Assembly (NCBI GenBank): GCA_001281695.1
Contig: LJIE01000001.1
Location: 3,929,521 to 3,993,520, forward strand
From: a bacterium 336/3
GTDB lineage: Bacteria > Bacteroidota > Bacteroidia > Cytophagales > Thermonemataceae
Direction: 5' to 3'
DNA: 64,000 nucleotides
Shown here: positions 1 through 9,826 of the stretch, piece by piece
Layout: each line of letters starts with the position of its first letter
Numbering within the stretch: the first letter of the stretch is position 1
Translations under genes and position numbers: made by a program
The notes under the pieces: model-generated
Databases searched by the model: none
Seen by the model: only the letters and a program-made list of their open reading frames with translations
Told to the model about the DNA's origin: nothing

Positions 1-671
1 GGTGTTTTTGCCAAATGGCAGTGTACAAGTTCAGCTGCATCTTGGGATTCAAATGGTAAATGTCCTGTAACTATTTCATAAAAAGTTATACCCAACGAAT
101 ATAAATCCGAACGGTAATCTACAACACGATTCATTCTTCCTGTTTGTTCAGGAGAAATATAGGCAAGCGTACCTTCTAATGTTTCAGGGCTTTCTAATTT
201 TTGGTTTTTTAAATCCATGTTTACAGCCATTCCAAAATCTATTATACGAATAGATTTCTTGGCTATATCAACAAGTATGTTGTTACTATTGAGATCTTTA
301 TGAATAATATTTTTTTGGTGTATTTCACCCAAAATTTCTGTAATTGCAATAGAAATTTCAAGAAACGACCTTAAATCAAATAATTTTTGCTTAATAGCGT
401 CTTTAATACTACATCCATCAAAATATTCTAACAATAAAGCATGACGATTATTTATCTTTATGTGTTTGTACCCTTTTCTGATTCCAGTAATATCTACTTT
501 AGTTGTATAATCTAATTCATTTTTGAGTTGTACAATTTGTTTAGTACTAGGAAATTCCGATTTAAGTACCTTTATAACAATAGGGAGTTGATATTCACCA
601 CTTTCTGTGTAGTAAATTTGGGAATTTACAGTATTAGCTATTAACTTTGCATTGTTAGGAATATCTTGCAT
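1..671 (-). CDS. Ser/Thr protein kinase, N-terminal part (HstK-like hybrid kinase?), runs off the left edge
   Basis: The reverse strand reads from ATG at 671 through an unbroken kinase domain to the window edge. A lysine in VIKVLK is the likely ATP-binding residue. The catalytic loop reads HKDLNSNN and the magnesium loop reads DFG. After it come GTLAYISPEQTGRMNR and DYRSDLYSLG, a wording typical of the kinase domain that starts very large hybrid proteins (Ser/Thr kinase, AAA ATPase, GAF, histidine kinase) in cyanobacteria and Bacteroidota. Only the kinase is visible, so the hybrid architecture is inferred. The glycine-rich loop is weak. It is divergent from the acetyltransferase at 749, with 77 bases between them that could hold both promoters. 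Confidence 0.85.
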   Translation of the reverse strand, partial: MQDIPNNAKLIANTVNSQIYYTESGEYQLPIVIKVLKSEFPSTKQIVQLKNELDYTTKVDITGIRKGYKHIKINNRHALLLEYFDGCSIKDAIKQKLFDLRSFLEISIAITEILGEIHQKNIIHKDLNSNNILVDIAKKSIRIIDFGMAVNMDLKNQKLESPETLEGTLAYISPEQTGRMNRVVDYRSDLYSLGITFYEIVTGHLPFESQDAAELVHCHLAKT

Positions 672-748: not shown

Positions 749-1399
749 ATGAATATTGAAAATATTTTGGAACAAGGTATTACTTTTAGCTTGCTTCAAG
801 AAAATCAGATACATCAAGCTACCGAATGTTTTACTTTGTCCTTTCAAAGAGAACCTATGGTAAAGGCTTTAGAAATCCCTTATGAAGACTTTTATAATTT
901 TGCTTTTAATGTATGCAAAAAAGCTTTGGAACAAGATATGGCTTTGGTAGCAATACATGAAGAGAAAGTTGTAGGGATAAGTATTCTTCAAGATGCTTTA
1001 GAAGACGAACTCACTTTTGATAACCTTCATGAAGGTTTAGATATTATATTTTCATTGTTGGGTGGACTACAACAAAAATATATTGATGACTACCATGTTA
1101 CAGAGAAAGGTAAAGTAATTGTGGCATTTACTGTTGGTGTTGATAAAGACTATGAAGGTAAAAATCTTACATTTCCTTTATTTGATATTACTGTCAAACA
1201 AGCTAAAAAACTTCATTATGAAAAAATGATTACAGAAGTAACAGGTATTTATTCCCAAAACTTTGCTAAAAAAAGATTTCAATTTAAGCCTTTGTTTGAG
1301 CTTCGTTACAAGGATTTTGAATACCAAGGAGAAAAAGTATTTGCCAAATTCCCTGAAGGGTCAAATCCAACATGTGTCCTCATGGAAAAAGTATTATAA
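749..1399 (+). CDS. GNAT-family N-acetyltransferase
   Basis: This is a 216-residue single-domain protein with the GNAT fold pattern: VAIHEEKVVGISILQD for the central strands, and a degenerate acetyl-CoA loop (DYEGKNLTFPLF) where the usual form is R/Q-x-x-G-x-G. The layout with an early F..SF..EP motif recalls arylalkylamine-type acetyltransferases, but the substrate is unknown. It has no signal peptide, so it should be cytoplasmic. It is a paralogue of the next gene, 28 bases downstream, and both precede two amino-acid-decarboxylase-like genes on the same strand. An amine made by decarboxylation and then N-acetylated is a reasonable inference, not shown by the sequence. Confidence 0.75.
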   Translation: MNIENILEQGITFSLLQENQIHQATECFTLSFQREPMVKALEIPYEDFYNFAFNVCKKALEQDMALVAIHEEKVVGISILQDALEDELTFDNLHEGLDIIFSLLGGLQQKYIDDYHVTEKGKVIVAFTVGVDKDYEGKNLTFPLFDITVKQAKKLHYEKMITEVTGIYSQNFAKKRFQFKPLFELRYKDFEYQGEKVFAKFPEGSNPTCVLMEKVL

Positions 1400-1427
1400 A
1401 ACCTATTATCACTTAAAAATTGTAACT

Positions 1428-2102
1428 ATGCTTCATTATCAACTACCCTTTGAACATCAAGATATACATTACGATACTATTCAAGAAACTGATAGAGATC
1501 AAGTTATCAGTATTTTGACAAATTATTTTGGTCCTTTTGAGCCCATGAATCATAGTGTGGGTATCACAACACAAGATTTTGCTAAGTTTGCTGAATTAAT
1601 GACAAACTATGTGATAGAAAAAAAGCTTTCTTTAATCGCTAAAGATAAAAAGACTCAAAAAGTGGTATCTGTAACTATTCTAAAAGATTTTGTAGAGGAT
1701 TTACCAATTGATGTCCCAGAAGTTTGTCCTAAACTTTTACCAGTATTTGCTCTTATGGGTGAACTTGTAGGGCGTTATCTTGAAGAAAACCCTAATATAG
1801 AAAAAGGATACATCATGGAGTTATTGGTAGGTATTACTGTTCCTACTTATTGGAATAGAGGAATTTCTACAATTTTATGGGGAGCTAGCGAAAATGTAGC
1901 TTCTAAACATGGTTTTCAGAAAATAGTTTCTTGTGTAACGGGTTTAGCAAGTCAACATATTACTTTACAAAAACTTCATTATCAAGACTTTTTTTCTATC
2001 CCTTACAAAACATTTGTTTTTGAAGAAAAACTCGTTTTTGAGGGAATTAAAGAAATTTCAGCTTGTAAACTAGTTGAAAAGAACATACAGAATGCTTTTT
2101 AA
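1428..2102 (+). CDS. GNAT-family N-acetyltransferase, paralogue of the preceding gene
   Basis: The protein has 224 residues when started at ATG 1428 (MLHYQLPF). The open frame continues upstream to 1263, but that part overlaps the preceding gene and has no matching segment in the paralogue, so the internal start is preferred. The core resembles its neighbour: a VVSVTILKDF strand, then an acetyl-CoA loop (YWNRGISTIL) closer to the GNAT consensus than in the first copy, then an aromatic C-terminal segment (HYQDFFSIPY). It lies 26 bases before the degenerate decarboxylase gene and probably belongs to the same operon. The substrate is not known. Confidence 0.75.
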   Translation: MLHYQLPFEHQDIHYDTIQETDRDQVISILTNYFGPFEPMNHSVGITTQDFAKFAELMTNYVIEKKLSLIAKDKKTQKVVSVTILKDFVEDLPIDVPEVCPKLLPVFALMGELVGRYLEENPNIEKGYIMELLVGITVPTYWNRGISTILWGASENVASKHGFQKIVSCVTGLASQHITLQKLHYQDFFSIPYKTFVFEEKLVFEGIKEISACKLVEKNIQNAF

Positions 2103-2128
2103 TTATCACTTAATTTTATTAATAAATC

Positions 2129-3334
2129 ATGTATTGGACTGCATTCACAGAAGAGGAAATTCAAGAAAAGGTAAAAGATGCATTATCTCAAAATGTTTCT
2201 TATTTGAGAAGTAAAATTATGGGAGTACCAGGTTCTTATCTTGACTCTTCCGTTTTTAACTTAGAAGCTGCAGCTGATTCCCCATTTTTAGAATCAATGG
2301 TTGAAAACCCCAACCATATTGGGTGCCATACATTTGGTGATTCTGAAGGTTTTTTCAAAGGTACACATCAAATTGAAAAAGAGCTGATTAGTATGTGTGC
2401 AGAAGAGATTTTCAAAGCAGAACCCAATAGTTATGATGGCTATGTTGCTCCTATCGATTATGAAGGCAATATCCAAGCTATGTGGGTATATCGTAATTTC
2501 TTTCAAAAAGAATACAAAGCTAAAACAGAAGAAATTGGTGTTTTGTTTAGTCAAGATTCTAATGTATCTGTAGTAAAAGGAGCTGATATTTTAGAAATTC
2601 AGCCAATTATACTAAATGTTGAAACATTTACTAGAGCTATCCAACGCCAAACTTTTATAGATCAATTGCTAAAAGCTCTAAGTCAGGGCATCAAATACTT
2701 CATTTGCATAGTTAATATGGGTAATTTGAAGTTTGGCAAAGTAGATGATATAGAATTATTTGTAGAAGTTTTACAGGAGTTTCAAGTTCCATTCAAAATT
2801 CATGTAGATGCTTCATTTGGTGGATTTATATACCCCATTGCCAATCCTGATAACCCTCTTAATTTTACTCACCCACATATTTCTTCTATTTCTGTTGATG
2901 CTTACAGAATCTTACAAGCTCCTTTTGGAACAGGTATTATACTTATTCGTAAGAATTTATTGCATTATGTCGTAACAGAAGAAGCTAGTTATGTTAGTGG
3001 GAAAGATTATACTCTTTCTGGAAGTCGTTCAGGGGCTAATGCTATTGCCGTATGGATGCTTTTAAAAGCGTATGGTTCTGAAGGTTTAAAACAAAAAATA
3101 AACCACATACTCTACCGAACAGATTTGTTATGTCAAGAGTTAGATAAAAAAAATATTACCTATTTCAGAAATCCATTCTTAAACATTGTTGCCATACACG
3201 ATAAACATATTACACGTAGAATAGAGCAGTTATATGGTTTAACCCCTAATGATAAAGAAAATCCTCAATGGTGGCGTGTGGTAGTAATGGAGCATGTTCG
3301 AGAACATTTGATTGATGAATTTATTGAATATTAA
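2129..3334 (+). CDS. Degenerate PLP-dependent decarboxylase-like protein (likely pseudoenzyme)
   Basis: This 401-residue protein aligns along its full length with the gene at 3403 and has the length and layout of group II decarboxylases such as PLP-type histidine decarboxylase and MfnA. Three cofactor contacts are changed. The Schiff-base lysine is Arg260 (DAYRILQAPFGTG, against DAHKMLQ in the neighbour). The phosphate-binding SGGTEAN motif is APIDYEGN (residues 107-114). The ring-stacking histidine is Asn145 (DSNVS against DTHYS). The aspartate of HVDASFGG and the TLSGSRSG motif remain. The frame is intact, so it is probably expressed. A role as a regulatory or structural partner of the active copy is inference. 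Confidence 0.85.
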   Translation: MYWTAFTEEEIQEKVKDALSQNVSYLRSKIMGVPGSYLDSSVFNLEAAADSPFLESMVENPNHIGCHTFGDSEGFFKGTHQIEKELISMCAEEIFKAEPNSYDGYVAPIDYEGNIQAMWVYRNFFQKEYKAKTEEIGVLFSQDSNVSVVKGADILEIQPIILNVETFTRAIQRQTFIDQLLKALSQGIKYFICIVNMGNLKFGKVDDIELFVEVLQEFQVPFKIHVDASFGGFIYPIANPDNPLNFTHPHISSISVDAYRILQAPFGTGIILIRKNLLHYVVTEEASYVSGKDYTLSGSRSGANAIAVWMLLKAYGSEGLKQKINHILYRTDLLCQELDKKNITYFRNPFLNIVAIHDKHITRRIEQLYGLTPNDKENPQWWRVVVMEHVREHLIDEFIEY

Positions 3335-3402
3335 AGATTAAAAATTTCTCAAAATTATTTCTAGCAAATATACTGTTTATTAATTTTACCTTATTCTTAT
3401 TT

Positions 3403-4614
3403 ATGATGTATTGGGAAAAGCTCTCAAAAGAAGCTATCACTTCTAAAGTGAATCAGGCTCTTAGTAAAAATATTCGTTTTGATAAAAATAAAATCATGGG
3501 GGCATCTATTTCTTTTTTAGATCCCATAGTCTTTGACAAAAAGTACATGCGTAACGCTCCTTTCTTGACTTCCATGATTCATAATCCTGACCATCGGGGT
3601 TGCCATACACTCAATGTCAATGGTGGTTTATTTGAAGGTACAAAAGAGCTTGAATTAGATGTTATTAGAATTTGTGCTGAGGAGCTCCTGAGAGGACAAG
3701 CTGGTATGCAAGATGGCTACATCGCTTCTGGAGGTACAGAAGCTAATATCACAGCCTTGTGGATTTTCAGAAACTTATTTAAAAGACGCTATGAAGCTAA
3801 AAGTAGCGAGATGGTTATTTTCTGCTCTCGTGATACTCATTATTCTATTTATAAAGGAGGCAATCTTTTAGGCATAGATGTTGTTTCCCTTCAAGTAGAT
3901 AACAACACTCGTCAAATTAAACCTCATGTATTAGAAGACAAAATAATCTCCGCCAAAGAAAATGGTAAAAAATATTTCATTTTTGTAGCCAATATGGGTA
4001 CGACTATGTTTGGCTCAGTGGATGATATAGAGATGATTACTTCAATCTTTGATAAAACTGAAGTATTTTATAAAGTGCATGTAGATGCTGCTTTTGGTGG
4101 ATTTATATATCCTTTTACCAATGCTGAAAATGAACTTTCATTTGCCAATAAAAGAATAGCTTCTGTAAGTCTTGATGCTCACAAAATGCTTCAAACGCCT
4201 TATGGGACAGGTATGTTTATTGTACGTAAAGGTTATTTTGAGTATTTAAAACCTGAAGAAAAAGCCTTTCTTACTGAAACAGATTTAACTCTCTCTGGTA
4301 GCCGTTCGGGGGCTAGTGCTATTGCCATTTGGATGGTTTTGATGACTTATGGTTCCAGTGGTTTAAGAGAAAAAGTTTTGAAAATGGTTAATAGAACCAA
4401 ATGGCTTTGTGATGAGCTATCTAAAAAGGGTATAGATTACTACTATAATCCTTACATGAATATTGTATCTATTCGCAATGAGGATATTACAAAAGAGTTA
4501 GTAGAATTGTACAATCTTGTTCCTGATAACCATGACAGCCCTAATTGGTGGAAAGTTGTAACCATGGCTCATGTAGATAAAGTTCTTATGGGAGACTTTT
4601 TGGAAAATGAGTAA
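3403..4614 (+). CDS. Group II PLP-dependent amino-acid decarboxylase (histidine decarboxylase/MfnA-like)
   Basis: This 403-residue protein carries the expected PLP machinery: SGGTEAN (109-115) for the phosphate, His146 in DTHYS for ring stacking, HVDAAFGG for the ring-nitrogen aspartate, and Lys261 in DAHKMLQ for the Schiff base. TLSGSRSG follows. Length and motif order fit the histidine decarboxylase/MfnA branch, which removes CO2 from an amino acid to give an amine. Which amino acid cannot be read from the sequence. ATG 3406 is an equally good start and aligns with the MYW start of the paralogue. The upstream paralogue has lost the same residues. There are 68 bases between the two genes. 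Confidence 0.88.
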   Translation: MMYWEKLSKEAITSKVNQALSKNIRFDKNKIMGASISFLDPIVFDKKYMRNAPFLTSMIHNPDHRGCHTLNVNGGLFEGTKELELDVIRICAEELLRGQAGMQDGYIASGGTEANITALWIFRNLFKRRYEAKSSEMVIFCSRDTHYSIYKGGNLLGIDVVSLQVDNNTRQIKPHVLEDKIISAKENGKKYFIFVANMGTTMFGSVDDIEMITSIFDKTEVFYKVHVDAAFGGFIYPFTNAENELSFANKRIASVSLDAHKMLQTPYGTGMFIVRKGYFEYLKPEEKAFLTETDLTLSGSRSGASAIAIWMVLMTYGSSGLREKVLKMVNRTKWLCDELSKKGIDYYYNPYMNIVSIRNEDITKELVELYNLVPDNHDSPNWWKVVTMAHVDKVLMGDFLENE

Positions 4615-4679: not shown

Positions 4680-4708
4680 ATCACGATTGGTGTTATACCA
4701 ACCGTGAT
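4680..4708. terminator. Hairpin between convergent genes
   Basis: ATCACGATTGGT and ACCAACCGTGAT form a 12-bp stem with one mismatch around a 5-nt loop. It sits between the converging ends of the decarboxylase gene (4614) and the M60 peptidase gene (4769). No strong T-run follows on either strand, so the assignment is tentative. Confidence 0.45.
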
Positions 4709-4768: not shown

Positions 4769-6841
4769 TCAAAAACCCATAATTTTTTTGGTATTGGCTT
4801 TTGGTAAATTTTTGAGGCTGTTTTTAGCATCCATAGATACAGGGAGATTCCAAATATCAAAGAAATCACTTAAATCTTCCCCTACAACATTTGAATATGT
4901 TTTGAGCCAAGTATCCATTTTGCTCTTATTATCTTTTGGAAGTTCCTTTTCAGGCATATTGCGATAAACTTTGAATACTTTTTTGAGGTTTTCCCAACCA
5001 TAATAATTGATCAGTTGTTGATACATGATCAAAGCAATAAAAGGCTCTTTTTTCCATTTTTCAAAGGATTTTCCTGATTTAGTATATTCATCCCACATTT
5101 TTTTTGTCTCTGTAGGAGTTAAGGCATCTATCATCTCTTCTTGTTTGAGATTCATTACTTTTTCTAAAGCAAACATAGAAAAAAGGTTGCAAGTAACCTC
5201 TACAGTACCATCAAACGTCCAAGCAGATTCTTGATGATTATGCCCCAACTCATGCACAAAGCCCCATTTTTTCGGATTTTTTATATCAATAATACTTGCT
5301 TGCTCATCTGCGTATGCTTTGCCTGTGAGTGCCATAATAGGATAGCCTGAATGCATATAACCTAATGAAATTTGTCTGTCAAATACAAGTCTCATTTTGT
5401 GTGGTTTGTCTGTTTTCCAAGCTACAAGTTCCCTGTTGGCAGCTTGAATTTTATCCCAGAATTGTGCAACTTCTTGTGGATTGTTCAGGTTTCTGATATA
5501 TTCACTTTCTATAGTAAAAGCAAAGTTTTCACCCTCAATTTCTGCCCAAGGAGCAGAAAAATTGCGTATTTTGCTTCTCCAGTCTTCTATGGAAGTTTGC
5601 CCCAGTTTGAAAAAAGGTGCTTCTATTGCCCCTGAAATGCTAATATTTAGTTTTATATTTTCCTGATTTTTTTCAGGAACTTCTATATAAATCATGCCTC
5701 CAAACGGATTAAATACTTGTGTAGTACCTTTTTGTAATGAAAAGGCTAAACTTACCTCTGGTACTCTTTGCCAATTTTCTTTAACCTCATATAGCTTATC
5801 AGTATGCGAACCTATTCTTACTTTATATTTTCCTGTTTTTATGTTATTTTGTGTAATGAGGGTAATCATGGCTCCTGCTGGTGCATATAATCCAGTACAA
5901 TGCCAATAAGGAATTTGTGTGTTTATCGTAACATTTTTTGTAACTGTTGGAGTATTGGCAGGAGCATTCCCTGGGAAATCGGAAGGAATTACAAATGGTT
6001 TTTCATTTTGAATGATTGCAGGTAATACTTGCATTAATTTTTTCAAGGCACTTCCAAATTTTTTCTTATCTGCTTGTGCTAAATTATTAGCCAATACATA
6101 CTTTTTGGCGTCTGTATATGAGAAAATACCTTCAAGCTCTACATCTGCAACGACTTTTTTGGCATAACTTGCCTCTTCTCCCCATTCTATTCCTGCATCA
6201 GCAAGTAAAATATTCCCTTTAAAATCATCTTTAAGGCTTAAATTAGGATTTAATTGTTGCCAACCCCAACCAAGCCCTGCAAATAATCCACCTTTTCCAC
6301 TTTTGAGGGCTTTTTTTAGGATTTCTATTTCATTATTTTCTGTTTTTAATCTATCAGGATTTAATATAATCACATCTACGGTATTCAATAATTCAGCAGA
6401 AAGTACAGTTTCATTATTTATTTTCTGAAGTGAAAAACCTTGTGTTACCAAATAATCTGCCAAAACATCTAAACCTCTTATAAGAATTACAGGTTTGTCT
6501 TTTTTGTTTGCTGTCCAACGAATAGCATTATTGATTAGTTGTTTTGTTTGAGTATTTTTTAAGCCTTCTTTATCAAAAAAGCCATCATGTCCAAAAGCTA
6601 CTACTTTTCCTTTGCCCATCATAGCACCACCTACGATGGCTTCTCTTGCTCCTTGAGCGTTTACTAAAATAGGAAAGCTATTATTAAGCAAGATAAGTTC
6701 GCCCCAAGTACCTATGGCTGGAACTTCTTTAACATTTTGAAGTAAATAACTACGTTCTGTTGCAGGATTCAAAGGAGTATTTTGTGCAAATAATTGATAG
6801 CAGTTTGCATAAAGCAACCACAACATAATTAATTTTTTCAT
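4769..6841 (-). CDS. Secreted M60-family (enhancin/mucinase-like) metallopeptidase
   Basis: The 690-residue protein starts with a signal peptide (residues 1-20, ending LFAQ). The zinc site is HELGH at residues 530-534 with a downstream glutamate (Glu548 in GTVEVT), which matches the HExxH plus distant E arrangement of peptidase M60. M60 enzymes act outside the cytoplasm and often cut mucin-like glycoproteins. The N-terminal third (about 40-220) looks like an alpha/beta domain with AIVGGAMMGKGKVVAFGHDG, of the kind found ahead of M60 domains. Residues 310-410 may be a beta-sandwich. It stands alone, transcribed towards the decarboxylase cluster. The substrate is unknown. Confidence 0.82.
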   Translation of the reverse strand: MKKLIMLWLLYANCYQLFAQNTPLNPATERSYLLQNVKEVPAIGTWGELILLNNSFPILVNAQGAREAIVGGAMMGKGKVVAFGHDGFFDKEGLKNTQTKQLINNAIRWTANKKDKPVILIRGLDVLADYLVTQGFSLQKINNETVLSAELLNTVDVIILNPDRLKTENNEIEILKKALKSGKGGLFAGLGWGWQQLNPNLSLKDDFKGNILLADAGIEWGEEASYAKKVVADVELEGIFSYTDAKKYVLANNLAQADKKKFGSALKKLMQVLPAIIQNEKPFVIPSDFPGNAPANTPTVTKNVTINTQIPYWHCTGLYAPAGAMITLITQNNIKTGKYKVRIGSHTDKLYEVKENWQRVPEVSLAFSLQKGTTQVFNPFGGMIYIEVPEKNQENIKLNISISGAIEAPFFKLGQTSIEDWRSKIRNFSAPWAEIEGENFAFTIESEYIRNLNNPQEVAQFWDKIQAANRELVAWKTDKPHKMRLVFDRQISLGYMHSGYPIMALTGKAYADEQASIIDIKNPKKWGFVHELGHNHQESAWTFDGTVEVTCNLFSMFALEKVMNLKQEEMIDALTPTETKKMWDEYTKSGKSFEKWKKEPFIALIMYQQLINYYGWENLKKVFKVYRNMPEKELPKDNKSKMDTWLKTYSNVVGEDLSDFFDIWNLPVSMDAKNSLKNLPKANTKKIMGF

Positions 6842-7100: not shown

Positions 7101-7997
7101 TTAAATAAAGCCTAAATCTTCAGCTATATCATGAGTAAGTTTGGATAGTGGACGTTTATGAAAGTTTTCTTCAGAAACATAGTTACCTCCAATATGTCTT
7201 AACACATCTTCTCTATTCTTAAAAAGTGTACCTTCATAACGTTTGAATAAATCGTCTATGTAATCATCAGAATATGTCACTTGTTTCTGGATAAGTTCTA
7301 GAATGATATCTTTATGTTGATTATAGAGGTTTTCTATTTCAAAAACTGTAAAATTTTCTTGAAGTTTATTTTTAACTTCTGTAAAATCTAACTCAAACCC
7401 CTGTTTTGAATCATGATAGAAACTTGCTTTCTTAATTTTTAGTTTGAAACTGAATTTTTCCTCAAAAAAATCTGTATCATAAGGGTTTATAGAAATTTCT
7501 TTTGAGCCTTTCAATGTCTGATTACAAGTTTTACAACTAGGTATTAGGTTGTAAAAGGACATTGCTAAAAATGGGTATGCTTCCTTTGGATAAAAATGGT
7601 CAAATTCGCAAGTACGTTTTTCTTGCAGATTTCTGATGTAATTTCGATTGCAGTATGGACAAACTTGCATACCAAGTTCCTTTACAAGTTCATAAGCATT
7701 ATATTTATCTCCTCCTTTCACATTCCAGTTACTTGAAAATTTAGCAAAGTCTTTATACAAATCTATTAATTTAGAGATATGTACATGATATTGCTTTTGT
7801 TGTAATTTGGATGCTATTTCATCCAATTCATGAGGCTTTGCTTTTACTACGTTTTCAAAAGTATAACCTTTGTTCAAAAACCAGTTTTCTACATTTTGAA
7901 AGTCTTTTTTAGAAAAAGCAGTTATATCTCTGTTTTTTATCGCCTCCCAATGTTTTTGAGCTAATTCATTGAGATTTGGGTGTCTAATAGGTATCAT
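7101..7997 (-). CDS. ptuB: HNH endonuclease, PtuB-like effector of a Septu-type anti-phage system
   Basis: The 298-residue protein has a central HNH/zinc-finger nuclease core: Cys113 and Cys116 (CPYC), Asp133-His134 (EFDHFYP), and Cys155 and Cys158 (CKTC) followed by Asn159. The regions on both sides are helical and unassigned. Its ATG overlaps the stop of the upstream ATPase gene by 4 bases (7994-7997), so the two are translationally coupled. This ATPase-then-HNH order is the Septu (PtuA-PtuB) arrangement, in which the complex restricts phage by nucleic-acid cleavage. The symbol is assigned by architecture and gene order. A retron-linked version was considered, but no reverse transcriptase is present. 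Confidence 0.78.
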   Translation of the reverse strand: MIPIRHPNLNELAQKHWEAIKNRDITAFSKKDFQNVENWFLNKGYTFENVVKAKPHELDEIASKLQQKQYHVHISKLIDLYKDFAKFSSNWNVKGGDKYNAYELVKELGMQVCPYCNRNYIRNLQEKRTCEFDHFYPKEAYPFLAMSFYNLIPSCKTCNQTLKGSKEISINPYDTDFFEEKFSFKLKIKKASFYHDSKQGFELDFTEVKNKLQENFTVFEIENLYNQHKDIILELIQKQVTYSDDYIDDLFKRYEGTLFKNREDVLRHIGGNYVSEENFHKRPLSKLTHDIAEDLGFI

Positions 7998-9826
7998 TTT
8001 TTGTCTTTTTTTAGTTTTTCCAACTCTTCTTCTAATTTCTGTATTCGTTCCTCATGGCTTTCTACTTTTTCGAGGCGTTTGGTGTTGAGTTGTTTTTGGA
8101 GCATATTTTTAATAATAGGCTCTCCTATCATAGAAATGTATTTTTGAGCTAAATCTTGCTGGTCTTTTTGTGTTCTCCCCTTAAAAAGTGAACCCTCTAA
8201 CTCTTCACTGTTTAAATAAGCAATTACTTCATCTATTCTTTTTTGGGCAAAAGTTCCCATCAGTCCGCCTTTCATAAAAAAGGAATCTGTGAACAATGTA
8301 TGAATATTAGCTCCAAAAGTCTCTTTACGGTCTTGAAGTTTAGAAACCATACACTCACCTTTTTCATTTTTGCTCAAGAATATGATATTTTCTTTGGGTA
8401 AATTGGATACCAAAAACGGCGAATGAGAAGTAATAATAATTTGGATTTTCTTATCTGGAAATATCTGAGGCAAAAAATCTATCAAAATCTTTAAATACTC
8501 TTTTTGCCATTGTGGGTTGAAACCTGTTTCCCCCTCGTCTACTAAAATTATTAATTCATTAGGCTTAAGCTCTTTTTTATCTTCAACAGCACTATAAAAT
8601 CTTGAATATAAGTTTAATAGAGCTTTTTCTCCTGAACTTAAACTACGCCAATCCATAATAAAGAAAAATGTTCCTTTTTTATTATTTCTGATTAATTGAT
8701 AGTTTTTTAAAATTTTCTTTACGTTCTGTCGATTTGAAATATCACCAATATCATATATAATAGAAAAACCTTGATGTTTTTTGGGCTGGATTTTACCACT
8801 TTTTTCATCATTCTCTAAAATATCTATTATTTCAAACATTGCATCTATTTCCTTATTTAAGGGGCTATTATCATAATTTAATTTATATTTTTTCAAGATT
8901 GCTTTTGTAACTTCTCCTAAATTTCCTTTGAGGATTTGTTCTTGGAATTCTTTTAATATCTGTATTAATGTCTCTTGCCAAAAACTGCCAGAATTTTCAA
9001 ATAAGTCTATAAAGATTATGAGCAAAGATTGACATAATCTATCTGTTAAGCTTTTAGAAATATAATTAGAAAGTATTGTGTGATAATTTTCTATAATATT
9101 TCCCTTATCAAGTGCCATTCTTACCTTTATAAATATTGGATTAAAATCAATTACTAACTCCTTAGGCAAACTAAATTTTATATTTATATTAGGGTTTTCT
9201 TCAATAAATAGAAGTTGTCTTAGAATATCCTGAGAACGTATGACTTCATTCTCTATCAAATAATTAGTAGAAATAGATACAATATGAGAACTAAGATAAG
9301 ACTCTCTTTTCCCATCATAAATATTAGAGTAAAATAAAACTGGTGGATTATAATCTTTTACCACTTTAGTTTTTGCAAAAGGAAGACTAAATCCTCCACC
9401 TTTAGTTTTATCATGAAAATACTTTTCAAATAAGGTTTCTTGTTTACTTATTAGTATTACACTTTCTAATAACTCTTCATAACCTTCTATTTTATATTTT
9501 TCATCTGTTTGATTACGTTTTGTAACACAAATTATTCCATCAGGTTTTCCGTCAAAAATAGAATTCACGAAAATATTTATTGTAAATTCTATCAACGTAC
9601 TCTTCCCCGTTCCATTTTCGCCGATAATGGCGGTAATATTGGTGATGTTTTCACCAAAAAAGTTTTCGATATGGTTGGGGTTGTTTTCGTGGTGGAGTTC
9701 GCCTCCTATTATTTTACCATCTTTATCTTTTTCAGGGATAAACTCAAAACGGTGTTTGGAGCTAAAATTAAAGCCTTGCTCTTTGATATTTTTGTATTCT
9801 TCTATCCAGATATAAAGCAATTCCAT
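7994..9826 (-). CDS. ptuA: AAA/ABC-type ATPase, PtuA-like sensor of a Septu-type anti-phage system
   Basis: The 610-residue protein has a SMC/OLD-like ATPase split over its ends: Walker A ENGTGKST (70-77), ABC signature LSSGE (396-400), Walker B with catalytic acid LIILVDEGE (about 425-432), and a switch histidine in TSHSPFL. The C-terminus (about 585-610) is a charged coiled coil. In Septu the ATPase holds and controls the HNH nuclease encoded next to it, and the 4-base overlap with that gene fits. It is the first gene of the pair and is preceded by a 357-base non-coding stretch and ssrA. It is longer than many PtuA proteins, mainly in the middle region. Confidence 0.8.
   Translation of the reverse strand: MELLYIWIEEYKNIKEQGFNFSSKHRFEFIPEKDKDGKIIGGELHHENNPNHIENFFGENITNITAIIGENGTGKSTLIEFTINIFVNSIFDGKPDGIICVTKRNQTDEKYKIEGYEELLESVILISKQETLFEKYFHDKTKGGGFSLPFAKTKVVKDYNPPVLFYSNIYDGKRESYLSSHIVSISTNYLIENEVIRSQDILRQLLFIEENPNINIKFSLPKELVIDFNPIFIKVRMALDKGNIIENYHTILSNYISKSLTDRLCQSLLIIFIDLFENSGSFWQETLIQILKEFQEQILKGNLGEVTKAILKKYKLNYDNSPLNKEIDAMFEIIDILENDEKSGKIQPKKHQGFSIIYDIGDISNRQNVKKILKNYQLIRNNKKGTFFFIMDWRSLSSGEKALLNLYSRFYSAVEDKKELKPNELIILVDEGETGFNPQWQKEYLKILIDFLPQIFPDKKIQIIITSHSPFLVSNLPKENIIFLSKNEKGECMVSKLQDRKETFGANIHTLFTDSFFMKGGLMGTFAQKRIDEVIAYLNSEELEGSLFKGRTQKDQQDLAQKYISMIGEPIIKNMLQKQLNTKRLEKVESHEERIQKLEEELEKLKKDKK

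Follow-up and report, generated by a model that had tools for sequence, protein, structure and literature searches.

Complementary active-site losses in a tandem pair of group II decarboxylase paralogues from the bacterium 336/3

In the plant alanine and serine decarboxylases CsAlaDC and AtSerDC, the ring of the cofactor pyridoxal 5′-phosphate (PLP) lies between a His and an Ala, N1 is bound by an Asp and O3 by a Thr, and the phosphate is held by Gly, Thr, His and Lys; every one of these residues acts in cis, that is, from the same chain (PMC11407765; this and the other articles are cited here from excerpts). The other subunit supplies Ser347*/352* and a loop with Tyr336/341, and both enzymes become inactive after the loop Tyr is changed to Phe (PMC11407765). 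PLP contacts are divided between chains likewise in the bacterial S1P lyase S1PL2021 (PMC5234717), and in human AADC the loop Tyr of one subunit enters the site of the other (PMC10382914). Here we analyse two neighbouring decarboxylase paralogues, A and B, which lie behind two GNAT acetyltransferase genes in a 64,000-nucleotide stretch of the genome of the bacterium 336/3 (contig LJIE01000001.1, positions 3,929,521 to 3,993,520), referred to below as the window. They share fold and sequence with the branch of MfnA, bacterial histidine decarboxylase and plant alanine/serine decarboxylase, and jointly they hold both the cis PLP residues and the loop Tyr. However, in the structures of that branch both parts are found in one chain of a homodimer, whereas here they belong to different chains.

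PLP heterodimers of a dead and a live subunit are already known. In bacteria, glycine decarboxylase is split into two subunits (GcvPA and GcvPB), only one of which bears the Lys; they represent a distant family with different chemistry. Trypanosomatid AdoMetDC and deoxyhypusine synthase are not PLP enzymes. In both of them a dead paralogue is needed by the live one (PMC5201418, PMC3663545), and the AdoMetDC prozyme acts by relieving autoinhibition. In eukaryotic serine palmitoyltransferase, SPT1/SPT2 (LCB1/LCB2) form a PLP heterodimer in which one subunit lacks the PLP Lys and there is presumably one active site (PMC6148460), but the enzyme differs from A/B in belonging to another PLP family, the alpha-oxoamine synthases, and the excerpts mention no complementary loss in its Lys-bearing subunit. 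A literature search for dead/live or composite-site PLP decarboxylase pairs found none among the matches listed, as far as their titles and the beginnings of their abstracts tell. What sets this locus apart is that the supposedly live subunit has changed too, and at a complementary place. Probably, A and B are the two subunits of a group II PLP decarboxylase that is active only as a heterodimer, with a single composite site; it would then operate in the manner of SPT1/SPT2 and GcvPA/GcvPB.

An earlier reading of the locus, made from the sequence only, had described two GNATs followed by two decarboxylase paralogues, and all four open reading frames (ORFs) are indeed open. A and B are 44% identical over 400 residues in a gapless end-to-end alignment. 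Both exceed the Pfam cut-off of 27 bits for Pyridoxal_deC (PF00282), with 57.4 bits for A and 105.4 for B, and thus belong to the group II PLP decarboxylases. Sequence, profile and structure searches gave MfnA, plant alanine/serine decarboxylase and bacterial histidine decarboxylase as the closest types in the PDB (best matches include 3f9t, 8jij and 7erv); the structure models (pLDDT 90.0 and 91.6) were used for the fold only. In a profile alignment, T201, K261, Y289 and S300 of the A/B family correspond to residues 187, 249, 276 and 287 of chain 8jij, an alanine decarboxylase from which the first 60 residues had been cut off (PMC11407765). Adding 60 yields Thr247, Lys309, Tyr336 and Ser347, that is, the residues named in that article (numbering counted by hand).

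The same arrangement of a GNAT, a diverged A and a B was found in genome G770 (locus L001), and among 193 relatives of that genome that were searched, four more carry the pair (G781, G820, G826 and G830). In all six genomes that have A, it adjoins B. The five genomes other than 336/3 are referred to as the other lineage. The pair is rare: at E 1e-60 or better, 71 of 389 genomes of the G770 order carry the family, and two such copies were seen only in G770 (336/3 and the four further pair genomes are outside this sample). For comparison we used 94 unpaired relatives, 79 of them loci from a scan with A that covered 84,980 species by one genome each (best 80 of 203 relatives kept) and 15 from a scan of 118 genomes related to 336/3, of which 42 reached E 0.001 or better, in many cases through weak matches to other decarboxylases. 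"Unpaired" means alone in the DNA that was fetched, so that some of the 94 genomes may hold a second copy elsewhere. All six A copies could be compared, along with five complete B copies, as the sixth B (G830) contains a run of N.

All 94 unpaired relatives have both the stacking His and the Lys of the Schiff base, and we therefore rejected the idea that losses of the A type are a feature of the whole family. In A of this genome, the position of the stacking His is taken by Asn145, that of the O3 Thr by Leu200, that of the phosphate His by Tyr259 and that of the Schiff-base Lys by Arg260. All four residues are kept in every complete B. These observations bear out the sequence-only reading, which had noted SGGTEAN, His146 and Lys261 in B and APIDYEGN, Asn145 and Arg260 in an otherwise full-length A. 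The catalytic-loop Tyr (column 289 in B numbering, used for all columns below) shows the reverse pattern. It is a Tyr in all 94 unpaired relatives and in all six A copies, and a Phe in the five complete B copies as well as in that of G830. In terms of a self-sufficient group II decarboxylase, A thus has the loop Tyr (Tyr288) and lacks the cis residues, and B has the cis residues and lacks the loop Tyr. The former description of the two copies as active and dead is not supported in the case of B, and the pair warns that an intact Lys alone is insufficient to call a group II decarboxylase active.

The pattern extends beyond these residues. Among the 87 columns with at least 97% conservation in the unpaired relatives, seven (146, 147, 201, 202, 230, 260 and 384) are lost in all six A copies and kept in all five complete B copies, and four (65, 287, 289 and 292) are lost in all five complete B copies and kept in all six A copies. 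The list of columns with losses has 33 entries, of which two (49 and 328) are lost in both A and B and 20 in only part of the copies. In total, A has lost 17 of the 87 columns in this genome and 13 in G770, and B 10 and 12, respectively; the changes in B are almost as numerous as those in A, but sit at other places. In the loop region (276–295), the A copies of both lineages retain all 8 strongly conserved residues and B 3 of 8; beyond Phe289, positions 287 and 292 are altered in 5 of 5 B copies and 294 in 4 of 5. In region 61–75, A keeps 11 of 11 conserved residues and B 7. Near the His loop, O3 Thr and Lys, conserved residues are kept to 80–100% in B and to 60–80% in A. We give no weight to a Fisher test of cis versus loop columns (p 0.0013), because the columns were picked after the result had been seen.

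In the known enzymes the residues lost by A act in cis and the loop Tyr acts in trans, which suggests that A has lost the cis part of the site and B the proton donor that it would provide to its partner. Given such reciprocal losses, an A:B dimer would hold one complete site and neither homodimer any. In the proposed enzyme, B would bind PLP through Lys261, His146, Thr201, Asp228, Ala230, His260 and the phosphate loop, the catalytic loop of A would cross the dimer interface to offer Tyr288 as the proton donor, and A would also supply Ser299 for the phosphate. The second site of such a dimer, composed of the pocket of A and the Phe of B, would be dead. B has lost a loop Tyr that is supplied in trans in known structures, and A keeps it; contributing catalytic residues is therefore a likelier role for A than acting just as a scaffold or in allostery. 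One tandem duplication would have been followed by the loss, in each copy, of what the other provides.

The phylogeny is consistent with this order of events. All A copies form one clade and all B copies another (forks 100/98 and 99/99), apart from 66 other rows of the tree, and with a midpoint root the two clades are sisters (support 96/87). This indicates a single duplication before the lineages of this genome and of G770 parted. Between the lineages, A copies are 55% identical, B copies 52% and GNAT1 42–45%; ribosomal protein S6 gives 51–52%, a rough value (no S6 match in G781, a wrong ORF at L173). Pairwise omega values (NG86), all calculated within the other lineage, are 0.013–0.026 for A (6 of 10 pairs; 4 saturated), 0.011–0.028 for B (4 of 6 pairs; 2 saturated) and 0.035–0.074 for the GNAT (9 of 10 pairs). 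Therefore, A is under purifying selection and maintained in the other lineage.

The loss in A was stepwise. All A copies differ from the relatives at positions 146, 201, 230 and 260, and only this genome lacks the Lys and, in the phosphate loop, the Gly-Gly. The Lys loss that the sequence-only reading had reported for A is thus true here and not general (five of the six A copies retain the Lys), and PLP binding may have been preserved in the A copies of the other lineage. That reading had also stated that an intact Lys in relatives combined with random decay would speak against a selected role of A. An intact Lys is what we found; decay is not, given the open frames and, in the other lineage, the low omega. 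The two lineages and the intact unpaired relatives record a route that leads away from a homodimer, and the pair offers a clear test of how the division of a shared active site may turn a homodimer into an obligate heterodimer.

If the enzyme is active, its amine product would be N-acetylated by one or both of the adjacent GNATs. These are sub-threshold in Pfam, and a single-sequence search merely hinted at a likeness to arylalkylamine N-acetyltransferases (NATs). A profile of seven GNATs matched insect arylalkylamine/dopamine N-acetyltransferases in the PDB, the best being 4fd5 (arylalkylamine NAT2; E 1.1e-18), along with further structures (other insect NATs, Ebony GNAT domain, A654L). The GNATs of the locus differ from the insect enzymes in being bacterial and, in the case of GNAT1, in an acetyl-CoA loop that looks atypical; the likeness is that of a seven-sequence profile. 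The consensus of this loop is R/Q-x-x-G-x-G/A, and by eye we read NRGIS in GNAT2, EGKNL in GNAT1 and QGTKV in the GNAT1 relatives of the other lineage. GNAT1 and GNAT2 are paralogues, as had been proposed (28% identity over 211 residues), and may be another pair with divided functions. In the other lineage the locus holds a single GNAT instead of two, a count that covers the locus only, as GNAT2 was not searched for in those genomes.

A single-sequence search of weak reach matched GNAT1 in 5 of 390 genomes of the order and in 2 of 395 of the phylum (including G544), the own genome being counted. In the four other genomes of the first set, the GNAT adjoins a protein of 467–511 amino acids (aa). 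Three of these four neighbours were scanned and are, according to Pfam, decarboxylases of another group II type; the fourth looks alike by eye. The GNAT–decarboxylase link thus exists in two settings. The formerly proposed operon of a decarboxylase with an amine N-acetyltransferase has good support, and the locus points to a small type of bacterial operon that joins a decarboxylase to an arylalkylamine-NAT-like acetyltransferase. A literature search for a gene cluster of this composition in Bacteroidetes found nothing. As a side observation, the loci in question (L123, L124, L125 and L126), each with an arylalkylamine-NAT-like GNAT adjoining a group II decarboxylase of about 500 aa, have a small gene nearby that is weakly SpoIIAA-like in L123 and L125 (below the cut-off) and similar-looking by eye in L124 and L126.

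A large kinase gene (Pkinase and AAA_16, then GAF, HisKA and HATPase domains) is oriented divergently from GNAT1 in both lineages. In the five other genomes it adjoins the same genes as a single ORF of 1759–1760 aa; here it occupies two overlapping ORFs of 1291 and 446 aa (L134:531-5692), which may reflect fission or a frameshift. In the two genomes searched (336/3 and G770), only this locus gives matches that cover most of the kinase, the rest being kinase-domain or histidine-kinase pieces. The Ser/Thr-His kinase completes the cassette, in which it probably regulates or reads out a pathway whose proposed product is an N-acetylated amine.

Several observations weigh against the composite heterodimer. 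Its formation is read from sequences, and the pair is known from two lineages only. Neither of the two decays is complete: A retains the N1 Asp and, outside this genome, also the Lys and the Gly-Gly-Thr/Ser loop, and B retains Ser300 and Arg301, which would serve the dead site of A. The altered region 61–68 of B may belong to either the cis or the trans part of the site. The omega values come from the lineage whose A copies retain the Lys and do not measure selection on A of this genome; for that copy, the signs of selection are its uninterrupted frame and the 55% identity that it shares with A of the other lineage (52% for B). The gap between A and B, 1–3 bases in the five other genomes, is 68 bases here, and the acetyl-CoA loop of GNAT1 is unusual by eye. 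The NCBIfam cut-offs for specific decarboxylases are also not reached, either for the MfnA tyrosine decarboxylase (299.4 bits; B 206.1, A 167.1) or for the histidine decarboxylase PRK02769 (305 bits; B 181.7, A 151.7). Finally, enzymes with a Tyr-to-Phe change can have another activity, that of an aldehyde synthase.

The last point underlies the strongest rival explanation, which we still regard as unlikely: B alone would be an aldehyde synthase that carries out decarboxylation with oxidative deamination, yielding aldehyde, ammonia and peroxide, and A would be its regulator or accessory. Phe289, found in all six B copies, is the Phe in place of the loop Tyr by which an aromatic acetaldehyde synthase is recognized, and plant and mammalian decarboxylases become acetaldehyde synthases when just this one Tyr is replaced by Phe (PMC11308512). 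However, the rest of the B loop is altered too, and the same change inactivated CsAlaDC and AtSerDC, which are nearer homologues (PMC11407765). Furthermore, the neighbouring GNAT would need an amine, and A retains the entire loop.

Just as low a probability goes to a purely allosteric or scaffold role, in which A would act as a prozyme-like pseudoenzyme and B would be competent with another proton donor. It has a precedent in the trypanosomatid dead paralogues that activate live ones (PMC5201418, PMC3663545), but it leaves unexplained why A has retained the very loop that B has lost. The sequence-only reading had given A a non-catalytic job of this kind. That part stands insofar as A has lost its own PLP site but not its frame and most likely cannot act without B as its partner; the scaffold or allosteric part fits poorly with the kept Tyr288 loop.

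Slightly less probable still is a switch controlled by subunit composition, with B:B dimers yielding an aldehyde through the Phe loop and A:B dimers an amine through the Tyr loop of A; the kinase or the A:B ratio would set the product. If this were true, reciprocal degeneration would have created a switch between an amine for acetylation and an aldehyde.

We find it very improbable that A has been recruited to a different, perhaps PLP-independent, reaction or to ligand sensing unrelated to B. A in the other lineage does have a conserved pocket of its own, with Ser, Ile, Glu, Gly and Tyr at 146, 147, 201, 230 and 260 in 5 of 5 copies, but its constant and, in five genomes, very tight adjacency to B and the retained catalytic loop argue for a joint function. 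That A is a decaying relic is hardly credible: the loss is progressive, with the Lys and the phosphate loop gone only here, on a branch outside the range of the omega values, but the frame is open in six of six genomes, omega is about 0.02 in the other lineage and the identities between lineages show that A does not evolve faster than B.

The coordinates of the genes and of the codons discussed are collected in Table 1. The mechanically called ORF of GNAT2 begins upstream at a TTG; its length is counted from the ATG.

Table 1. Genes and active-site codons of the decarboxylase locus, in window coordinates
Feature	Position	Strand	Remarks
N-terminal part of the divergent multi-domain kinase	1..671	-	extends beyond the window; two overlapping ORFs here
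GNAT1, arylalkylamine N-acetyltransferase-like, 216 aa	749..1399	+	ORF and profile match
GNAT2, more distant arylalkylamine N-acetyltransferase-like protein, 224 aa from ATG	1428..2102	+	ORF and profile match
Decarboxylase A, 401 aa	2129..3334	+	without cis PLP site, catalytic loop retained
A Asn145 codon	2561..2563	+	position of the PLP-stacking His
A Tyr259-Arg260 codons	2903..2908	+	positions of the phosphate His and Schiff-base Lys
A Tyr288 codon	2990..2992	+	catalytic-loop Tyr kept (equivalent of CsAlaDC Tyr336)
Decarboxylase B, 403 aa	3403..4614	+	cis PLP site complete, catalytic loop altered
B residues 61-68	3583-3606		conserved in A and relatives, changed in B
B His146 codon	3838..3840	+	PLP-stacking His
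B His260-Lys261 codons	4180..4185	+	
B Phe289 codon	4267..4269	+	position of the catalytic-loop Tyr

Scans for transcription signals in the window gave no excess of promoters, either for the Bacteroidota-type consensus TTTG-N-TANNTTTG (7 found, 7.1 expected) or for sigma-70 (18 found, 24.2 expected). A single terminator-like site was detected (2.2 expected), a repeat at 4680-4708. It reads on the minus strand, the same as that of the neighbouring peptidase gene, and we therefore dropped it as a candidate for the end of the operon. The peptidase, encoded at 4769-6841 (-), is of the M60 (enhancin-like) type with an M60-like N-terminal domain. Further on, at 7101-9826 (-), an HNH protein and an ATPase match the PADLOC candidate families PDC-M62B and PDC-M62A (E 1.5e-76 and 7.1e-120), which are related to PtuB and PtuA, so that the two genes represent a Septu-like candidate defence pair.

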